Positions 21,277 through 22,931 of a DNA stretch of 48,249 nucleotides are shown in pieces. Position 1 is the first letter of the stretch; every line of letters begins with the position of its first letter. Origin of the DNA: Candidatus Zixiibacteriota bacterium (GTDB lineage Bacteria; Zixibacteria; MSB-5A5; GN15; PGXB01); NCBI GenBank assembly GCA_900498245.1, contig LS998015.1, positions 3,185,850 to 3,234,098 on the forward strand, written 5' to 3'. Below the pieces are notes generated by a model that did not search any database, had not been told where the DNA came from, and saw only the letters and a list, made by a program, of their open reading frames with translations. The position numbers were made by a program, and so were the translations under genes.

Positions 21277-21304
21277 TTGACAGAAAACAGCGGCGCCGTA
21301 TATT
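21277..21304 (+). promoter_or_regulatory. Strong sigma70-type promoter of the structured RNA
   Basis: TTGACA (21277-21282, 6/6), 16 bp, TATATT (21299-21304, 5/6). The predicted start is about 21311. No coding frame follows within 400 nt; the region downstream is the hairpin array ending at 21706. Confidence 0.75.
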
Positions 21305-21310
21305 ATTATT

Positions 21311-21715
21311 GTCGTCCTCACTAATCATAAAATAGATCGCACCTCAGACCTCTTGATTTAATTATATGCCTGGGCGGGTGGGTCAACGTCGTTGACGCTG
21401 ACATTTCATCCCCTCCCCACCTCCTTTTTGGCCGATTCCTCATGCAACCGGAGAAAGGAGGAGCAGTTATGACATAGTACCCCTGATGAGGGGGGCAGGG
21501 CCTATGCCCTGTGGAACCATCGACGGTTCCGATTGAGAGTCACCCGTGGCTGTATCTATTCGTCCGCCGTCAATAGGTTCTCGACCTATCATCTCTATTG
21601 CGGCGGGGGGAGGATTTCAGCCCGATACTAATACTCCGTCATACGAGACTACCGGGCGGAGTACCGCAATACGTATCTTAGGCCCCGGCTCAACTTCGAG
21701 CCGGGGTTTAGTTTA
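21311..21715 (+). ncRNA. Candidate structured non-coding RNA of about 400 nt (unclassified)
   Basis: It begins after a strong promoter and ends at an intrinsic terminator. Stems visible in order: GTCAAC/GTTGAC (21382-21396); CCTCCTTT/AAAGGAGG (21420-21461); CCCC/GGGG (21480-21493); CAGGGC/GCCCTG (21496-21511); GGAACC/GGTTCC (21513-21530); AGTCAC/GTGGCT (21538-21551, one G-U); CCGCCG/CGGCGG (21564-21606), enclosing either CAATAG/CTATTG or ATAGGT/ACCTAT; and GATAC/GTATC (21624-21677), enclosing TACTCCG/CGGAGTA. The longest frame with a ribosome site is a 2-codon ATG-ACA-TAG at 21469. I could not match the sequence to RNase P, tmRNA, SRP, 6S or known riboswitch consensus. Confidence 0.6.
21683..21715 (+). 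terminator. Rho-independent terminator of the structured RNA
   Basis: Arms CCCCGGCTC and GAGCCGGGG (9 bp, 6-nt loop) followed by TTTAGTTTA. Two further hairpins follow at about 21724-21762 and 21763-21789. Confidence 0.8.
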
Positions 21716-21861
21716 GGGACTCGGGTATGGGGAAATCACCATACTTCTTTTTGTATCCCCATAAGAATCAGGGGCCCGGGCCCATTCTTCCTGTTCCCAT
21801 TTGACATCGTATCGTGTCGTCCGGCAACAAGATAGAGAGTTTCCAAAGAATCCTTTCGTGA

Positions 21862-21877
21862 TGGCACCCCGCTTGCA
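21862..21877 (+). promoter_or_regulatory. Sigma54 (-24/-12) promoter, perfect consensus
   Basis: TGGCAC, five bases, TTGCA, exact to the RpoN consensus with 10 nt between the -24 GG and -12 GC. The predicted start is about 21889, 42 nt before the first gene of the small-protein operon. An enhancer-binding protein would be required; none is encoded in the window. Confidence 0.75.
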
Positions 21878-21930: not shown

Positions 21931-22149
21931 ATGAAAGTCAAATTCACACTGACCATGGATGACGTGACGGTCGAGGGCAACCAGATCGACACCATCATTC
22001 TCGACTGGACCTCGGAGGTCGATTCCAACGAAGTGCTGGCGATATCGCAGCGCTGGATCACCTCGCAGAATTTTCTGACGCAGAGAATGAACGGCCTGAG
22101 CCGGGTCGGCGAGTCTTCATTGACGATCGAGCCGCTGGAAGATTTTTAG
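21931..22149 (+). CDS. Small protein of unknown function (72 aa)
   Basis: Not recognised. 72 residues, acidic, no signal peptide, Cys-free. Predicted pattern: a strand (VKFTLTM), a strand (IDTIILDW), a helix (SNEVLAISQRWITSQNFLTQRM), then a strand (SSLTIEP), suggesting a small alpha/beta fold. AGGCGG five bases upstream supports the ATG. First gene after the sigma54 promoter, so probably made under a specific stimulus. Seventeen bases separate it from the next gene. Confidence 0.65.
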   Translation: MKVKFTLTMDDVTVEGNQIDTIILDWTSEVDSNEVLAISQRWITSQNFLTQRMNGLSRVGESSLTIEPLEDF

Positions 22150-22165
22150 GATTCTTGGAGACGGT

Positions 22166-22471
22166 ATGACAAATCTACTGCACCAGGCGGCTACGACCAT
22201 CGATTCCACCGGATTTATCATGGCCGGGAAGAATTTTATCGAAGCCCGTTTCGGCGTTCCCGGCCTGATCGCGGCCGCGATTCTACTCTTGAGCATCCTT
22301 GCCATCCTGACCATGAAAATAGTCAAGATATCGTTCGATGTCCTGCGCTTTGTCGTGGTCCCGTCGGTGGCTATAACTTTTGTTGCCACCTATTTTCTGC
22401 CCTATTCGTTCTCGTACATTTTGCCGGTAACGGTGGCCTTTTTCTCCATCGTCCTGATAGCGAAAAGTTGA
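22166..22471 (+). CDS. Small membrane protein of unknown function (101 aa)
   Basis: Not recognised. Three hydrophobic segments can be seen: about 29-49 (GVPGLIAAAILLLSILAILT), 58-78 (VLRFVVVPSVAITFVATYFL) and 82-99 (FSYILPVTVAFFSIVLIA). GGAG six bases upstream of ATG 22166. The N-terminal 28 residues are soluble and may be outside. Second gene of the sigma54-driven group. Confidence 0.65.
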   Translation: MTNLLHQAATTIDSTGFIMAGKNFIEARFGVPGLIAAAILLLSILAILTMKIVKISFDVLRFVVVPSVAITFVATYFLPYSFSYILPVTVAFFSIVLIAKS

Positions 22472-22493
22472 CCAAATCTCCGGGAGGGTAACC

Positions 22494-22931
22494 ATGTCGA
22501 AGGCATCGGCGTCGAATAATAAACTCAAGAAGACAGACGATGTGCCGTCGCGCCACCCGGTTTTTCCCTTTGTGGACGGCGACCGGAGTATTGCCGGCGA
22601 ACCGGAGATTCTCGATGCTGATAAAATGTTTATCGAATGTCCGGGGGCGACCGTGTACGAGCCGGGGACCAGAAATGTTGTCGCCGGGGTTCATTTTTTC
22701 GATGACAGCGATCCCTCGGCCGGATACGAAATAATCGATCATGCCGTCTTCGCCCCGGAACATCGGCGCCGCCGCATAATCAAGAAAGAACATGCCCATT
22801 CGATCCGCCGCTGTCAGGCCTGCCAGGATTTAACGGTCCGGCTGATGCGCCGCGAAGGGCCCGATTTTTTCATTCCCAATCCCCGTTTTCCGCGAAAAAA
22901 ACGTCTCAAACCGGTCGAAAAAAACTGGTAA
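22494..22931 (+). CDS. Hypothetical protein with CxxC and basic C-terminus (145 aa)
   Basis: Not recognised. GGGAGGG precedes the ATG with good spacing. The N-terminus is Ser/Lys-rich, and the middle is acidic with beta-like stretches (TVYEPGTRNVVAGVHFF, DHAVFAPEH). The C-terminus is strongly basic (HRRRRIIKK; PRFPRKKRLKP) and includes RRCQACQD, a single CxxC that could bind metal or form a disulfide. Third gene of the group downstream of the sigma54 promoter. The 124-bp gap to dciA lacks a clear terminator. Confidence 0.6.
   Translation: MSKASASNNKLKKTDDVPSRHPVFPFVDGDRSIAGEPEILDADKMFIECPGATVYEPGTRNVVAGVHFFDDSDPSAGYEIIDHAVFAPEHRRRRIIKKEHAHSIRRCQACQDLTVRLMRREGPDFFIPNPRFPRKKRLKPVEKNW

Follow-up and report, generated by a model that had tools for sequence, protein, structure and literature searches.

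Positions 21277-21715 (plus strand) of the window, by which we mean the whole stretch of 48,249 nucleotides analyzed, almost certainly contain a real RNA gene. On the basis of sequence comparisons, this gene is undescribed, lineage-specific and conserved in one order of uncultured Zixibacteria, and its RNA carries a genuine-looking translation start that usually opens a minimal ORF, the encoded peptide not being conserved. We assign a probability of about 0.35 to the reading that the RNA regulates in trans through exposed, C-rich pairing motifs and is gated or protected by a ribosome sitting on its mini-ORF. An earlier note on this DNA had proposed an RNA gene of this extent from its promoter, stems and terminator and the absence of a protein gene, all of which were confirmed by re-inspection of the window. 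It overlooked the main feature, the Shine-Dalgarno (SD) sequence and the mini-ORF included among the features below.

21277-21306, plus strand: sigma70-type promoter (TTGACA 21277-21282, TATATT 21299-21304, spacer of 16, 11/12 matches)
21311-21710, plus strand: predicted transcript of ~400 nt, with the start site placed from the promoter (241-506 nt among homologues, median 442 nt)
21316-21321, plus strand: CCUCAC motif (hereafter M1) of the 5' leader, from homologue counts, motif search and unpaired probability
21410-21429, plus strand: C-rich stretch CCCCTCCCCACCTCCTTTTT, the predicted partner of the SD in this genome (minimum free energy, MFE, structure)
21457-21461, plus strand: Shine-Dalgarno sequence GGAGG, which matches by complementarity the 16S tail of this genome, GGATCACCTCCTTTCT
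21469-21477, plus strand: mini-ORF ATG-ACA-TAG, two codons (frame-length test over homologues)
21480-21493, 21496-21511 and 21513-21530, plus strand: hairpins directly after the mini-ORF (predicted fold, arm-swap test)
21564-21606, plus strand: hairpin P4, CCGCCG-U-CAAUAG / CUAUUG-CGGCGG, with an open loop (arm-swap test)
21584-21593, plus strand: loop motif M3, ACCUAUCAUC (family consensus CACCUAUCAUCCA)
21663-21673, plus strand: motif M4, ACCGCAAUACG (family consensus UCCGYAAUACGA), just before the terminator
21683-21710, plus strand: intrinsic terminator with a 9-bp stem, CCCCGGCTC/GAGCCGGGG, and a T-rich tail (stem 21683-21706 perfect)

The TTGACA-16-TATATT promoter of the earlier note is present, and an alternative -10 element (TATTAT, 21301-21306, spacer of 18) fits equally well. 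This layout recurs among the homologues: 43 of 47 have TTGAC-N16..19-TAnnnT at 70-230 nt before the SD, with 0.5 expected from shuffled sequences and none on the minus strand. The 9-bp terminator stem was likewise confirmed, and in the family alignment six of its eight pairs display double-sided changes. The region thus has the conserved promoter and covarying intrinsic terminator of a stand-alone RNA gene, and compensatory change extends to the post-start hairpin, the M3 hairpin and the outer stem. The sequence 21311-21715 has a predicted folding energy of -153.7 kcal/mol (z -3.5), equalled by none of 100 shuffled sequences, and the folds of the homologues have a median z of -3.6. The strong folding implied by the earlier claim of at least eight consecutive stems was therefore upheld, but the simple row was not, as the stems are partly nested. 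The view that the region has no plausible protein gene also held: the longest plus-strand frame inside the RNA encodes 56 aa, and the longest plus-strand frames of the homologues (median 46 aa, versus 50 aa in shuffled sequences) show no excess.

The Rfam covariance models proposed as a check were run on the window and on 20 homologous loci, and they identified no known RNA-gene class. No Rfam 15 family reached the gathering level anywhere in the window, and one tRNA was the only match at that level among the 20 loci. Weak matches in the window (E ≤ 10) to anti-hemB (20.7 bits, versus a cut-off of 49.5), STnc450 and sR33 were rejected, as they corresponded mostly to the terminator hairpin or to chance. 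The description of the gene as one of no recognized class, undescribed or lineage-specific, is borne out by this result and by the homologues, which share motifs and have stems that stay paired despite sequence change.

A DNA BLAST search of the RNA against 60 relatives retrieved only the RNA itself. Homologues upstream of the same small genes, which the earlier note had suggested collecting, were nevertheless found: upstream of the 72-aa gene within the same family, the layout is identical with almost no sequence identity, and compensatory change is seen in the stems and the terminator. Synteny with this conserved downstream gene exposed the same transcription unit across the order, with few exceptions. 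Matches of the 72-aa family among named genomes identified the hosts as Candidatus Zixiibacteriota. A profile of the 3' block matched 48 of the 91 loci of the 72-aa gene, its spacing from the gene staying close to 270 nt. A covariance model comprising M4 and the terminator (R1) was then run over 132 genomes of the phylum, with good matches in ~50 genomes, all from two families of one order. Some of these sequences had served to build R1, which makes their scores in part circular; the evidence lies instead in the co-occurring promoter, start, hairpins and motifs absent from the model. Weak R1 matches outside the order lacked the promoter and the SD-AUG and were discarded. There is one credible RNA copy per genome, the second matches that were inspected being without promoter and start. 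Every homologue derives from a metagenome assembly or the genome of an uncultured organism.

Two sets of divergent forms were also observed. In a third family, diverged and apparently longer versions lie at L049, L050 and L095 (three found, 0.2 expected), ~860 nt before the 72-aa gene, with the mini-ORFs ATG-AAG-TAA, ATG-AGG-TAG and ATG-CTG-TAA, respectively. The near relative L064, with an upstream region of ~1,600 bases, has a 241-nt version that keeps the promoter, SD-AUG, M4 and terminator without the middle domain.

The sequence GGAGG-N5-10-AUG is present in all 53 readable homologues, one of which (L109) reads GGAGU, with a modal spacing of 7-8 nt, and the 16S tail of the genome is the canonical CACCUCC. 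In 30 of the 53, this start opens a frame of no more than three codons, versus 4.5 ± 2.0 (maximum 11 in 500) with shuffled downstream sequence, six in each of the other two frames and 26 of 212 for SD-less AUGs in the same RNAs; these counts ignore shared ancestry, a bias best countered by the diversity of codons and stops within the window's family. All 10 members of that family have such a frame, with differing codons and all three stops, and in L209 the mini-ORF is AUG-UAA. Shortness is not absolute, because the other 23 members have frames of 7-55 codons; in L071, by comparison with its relative L085, one base in the start region, either real or an assembly error, lengthens the frame. The start therefore resembles a two-codon minigene (SD, AUG, one or two codons, stop and selected shortness), with 23 longer exceptions. 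The second codon varies, GAG being the commonest, followed by GAT, ATT, GAA and others. Given this variation in codons, stops and length, the peptide does not appear to be the selected product, and the selected feature may be brief ribosome occupancy.

The RNA on either side of the start contains conserved elements. The 5' leader of the homologues is rich in C (29%) and poor in G (17%), with 31 occurrences of CCUCAC versus 2.3 expected and none downstream of the start; its motif-search score exceeds those of all shuffled sequences. As MAFFT alignments of the M3 hairpin placed the arms out of register, the stems were assessed by an arm-swap test. The post-AUG hairpin forms 8.14 bp with its own arms, versus 6.53 bp with those of other species (permutation p < 5e-5), P4, the M3 hairpin, forms 5.22 versus 3.62 bp over 23 homologues (permutation p < 5e-5), and the outer stem around it gave the same significance (p < 5e-5), although shuffle and swap tests model phylogeny only partly. 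M3 is a CACCUAUCAUCC loop, predicted to be mostly unpaired, atop stems that have wholly changed in sequence among homologues. Its motif-search score is 101, versus 43-47 in shuffled sequences, and it scores clearly in only about half of the members. Mean unpaired probabilities are 0.62 for CCUCAC, 0.66 for M3 and 0.58 for M4, each versus 0.41; as would be expected of conserved single-stranded seeds, all three are more unpaired than random stretches (p ≤ 2e-5).

The earlier suggestion that 21564-21606 could fold in two exclusive ways and act as a switch did not survive comparison. The ATAGGT/ACCTAT pairing is possible in the window, with a similar possibility in the sister pair L086 and L119, but across 22 homologues pairing of the ACCTAT element with upstream sequence (4.32 bp) was similar to that in shuffled sequences (4.17 bp). 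It is the outer stem and open loop that recur among homologues, not the alternative pairing. A specific, conserved upstream partner hiding the SD was likewise rejected, as exchanging the upstream regions between homologues left the pairing just as good (p 0.46). In the MFE structure of the window, the SD has an unpaired probability of 0.00, and for 41 of 44 homologues its predicted partner is located upstream, within the leader. The degree of SD sequestration was no stronger than in flank-shuffled controls for these homologues, and ribosome gating is for this reason something that we infer.

The genes downstream of the RNA in the conserved arrangement encode proteins of 72 aa (21931-22149), 101 aa and 145 aa, then DciA and GyrB. 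The three small genes (21931-22931), which adjoin dciA-gyrB, are conserved in Zixibacteria; their products match no Pfam or NCBIfam family above cut-off. An AlphaFold model of the 72-aa protein (pLDDT 82.5), searched with Foldseek for clues to RNA binding, had no PDB match at E ≤ 0.001, and the protein was not found in viral contigs. Most genomes place the RNA ~270 nt before the 72-aa gene, on the same strand and with little change in spacing, so that it could be a cis-acting leader or attenuator, with the mini-ORF and terminator controlling read-through into the operon of these three genes. We consider this unlikely. A leader should always lie upstream of, and be co-transcribed with, the gene that it regulates, but genome G010 carries the RNA on a separate contig (L185), complete with promoter, GGAGG-AUG, ATG-AAA-TGA, M3, M4 and terminator, and the 72-aa locus of the same genome (L037) has no RNA. 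In genome G042 (L187), the RNA is likewise unlinked from the 72-aa gene. A gene kept when relocated behaves, with respect to its usual neighbor, as the unlinked gene of a trans-acting sRNA would, and its unlinking in two genomes argues for an independent, probably trans-acting gene rather than a leader. Furthermore, 73 of 91 loci (0.9 expected), L037 among them, have a sigma54-like GGC-N7-TTGC element between the terminator and the 72-aa gene, so the operon appears to have its own start. In the window, the sigma54-type -24/-12 promoter is TGGCACCCCGCTTGCA, at 21862-21877. A palindrome, GGGTATGGGGAAATCACCATACTT, is found at 21723-21746, 3' of the terminator; as a similar palindrome before the 72-aa gene persists in the RNA-less L037, it may belong to the control region of that gene.

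The start region is open to other interpretations. The sequence AUGGAGGA...AUGGAG around it forms a double ANGGA, such that the RNA might titrate CsrA or be translationally gated by it. CsrA is encoded in 73 of the 80 genomes of the order (44 of the 44 high-quality ones), there are 69 ANGGA in the SD-AUG stretches of 49 RNAs, and the RNA resembles the CsrA sponges CsrB and RsmZ in its length (~370-440 nt), its many hairpins, its terminator and the presence of CsrA in the host. Outside the SD-AUG stretch, however, ANGGA is not clearly enriched (leader, 16 versus 10.7 ± 3.6; downstream, 80 versus 68.9 ± 7.5), and a sponge of the CsrB/RsmZ type was rejected for lack of such an excess. Moreover, the AUG is universal and the GGA after it is not, as expected of a start codon rather than of a CsrA site, and a role in CsrA binding seems improbable. 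It is similarly improbable that the output consists simply of initiation and drop-off or termination on the two- to three-codon ORF, which would sense or alter the levels of peptidyl-tRNA, release factor or free ribosomes. The selection of frame shortness rather than peptide fits such an effect, and two-codon minigenes with a strong SD are active in E. coli (PMC8708949), but some frames extend to 55 codons, the conserved distal M3 loop, M4 and terminator would be superfluous, and the characterized axe-txe minigenes are cis-acting and not toxic to growth (PMC8708949). That the RNA is a dual-function mRNA with a short peptide that matters is very unlikely: all readable members have a strong SD and start, but the second codon and the length vary and most frames encode two or three residues. 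A diverged housekeeping RNA such as 6S is more unlikely still. The 6S model has no match in this genome, an absence that says little because the same model also failed in 9 of 14 control genomes; against a housekeeping identity, the covariance models of 6S, RNase P, tmRNA and SRP gave not even a weak Rfam signal in the window, the RNase P and tmRNA genes were located elsewhere on the same chromosome, and the ~440-nt length combined with an SD-AUG start does not resemble 6S.

Trans action through exposed C-rich motifs, the reading that we prefer, would be an economical account of the C-rich leader, the M3 loop and the independence of the gene. A single-copy, independent gene with a sigma70 promoter and a terminator of its own would produce the RNA, whose unpaired C-rich motifs might pair with the Shine-Dalgarno or start regions of target mRNAs, or bind a protein. 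A ribosome initiating and quickly terminating on the mini-ORF could fix the central part of the RNA in a single conformation; its occupancy may free the C-rich leader, which would otherwise mask the SD, and may shield the RNA from nucleases. We propose that the activity of an RNA freed and shielded in this way would follow ribosome availability. A further, doubtful possibility is a stand-alone RNA, the first of its kind, that takes brief ribosome occupancy of its minimal ORF as regulatory input, thereby sensing how available ribosomes are and exposing trans-acting C-rich motifs accordingly, in bacteria with no Hfq found. It counts against the preferred reading that Hfq was not found in the 25 genomes nearest that of the window. 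A pattern search with the complement of M3 gave 12 one-mismatch matches. The rRNA was rejected as a target, because M1, M3 and M4 were no more complementary to the rRNA operon of this genome than shuffled sequences were.

The C-rich motifs of RoxS and RsaE pair with Shine-Dalgarno sites, and the CCUCCUCCC-loop sRNAs of Alphaproteobacteria are C-rich and trans-acting. The Zixibacteria RNA shares with them an independent gene, a terminator and unpaired C-rich motifs of the anti-Shine-Dalgarno type. Unlike these sRNAs, it is multi-domain and three to four times longer, has CCUCAC/CACCUAUCAUCC rather than CCUCC/UCCC and contains an SD-AUG mini-ORF; the mRNA pairing considered here is putative. Lambda bar is a two-codon minigene. 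The start resembles the minigenes of bar and of the axe-txe leader in having a strong SD, an AUG, one further codon and a stop, the identity of the peptide being apparently unimportant, but those minigenes lie in an mRNA leader and act in cis on a downstream gene, whereas this one lies within a terminated, stand-alone, order-wide RNA. Ribosome protection by the two-codon ORF has been proposed for axe-txe (PMC8708949). SgrS/SgrT and VcdRP also combine an RNA of the regulatory type with a translation start, but they encode a functional peptide, that of VcdRP having 29 aa (PMC8672173), whereas the Zixibacteria frame is minimal and not conserved, and no conserved encoded peptide of the kind expected of a dual-function sRNA was found. 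The RNA is long, structured and lineage-restricted, like OLE, GOLLD, ROOL and raiA, but differs from them in having no covariance-model match in Rfam 15. Novelty was judged from the absence of matches in Rfam 15 and in a literature search, which retrieved no noncoding-RNA study for this candidate phylum.

These findings illustrate that synteny can recover RNA genes invisible to BLAST and Rfam. A candidate phylum gains an RNA gene that is order-wide and probably core, in genomes where Hfq was not detected, and a conserved start yielding two to three residues in a terminated, structured RNA provides a testable case of translation for occupancy, not product.
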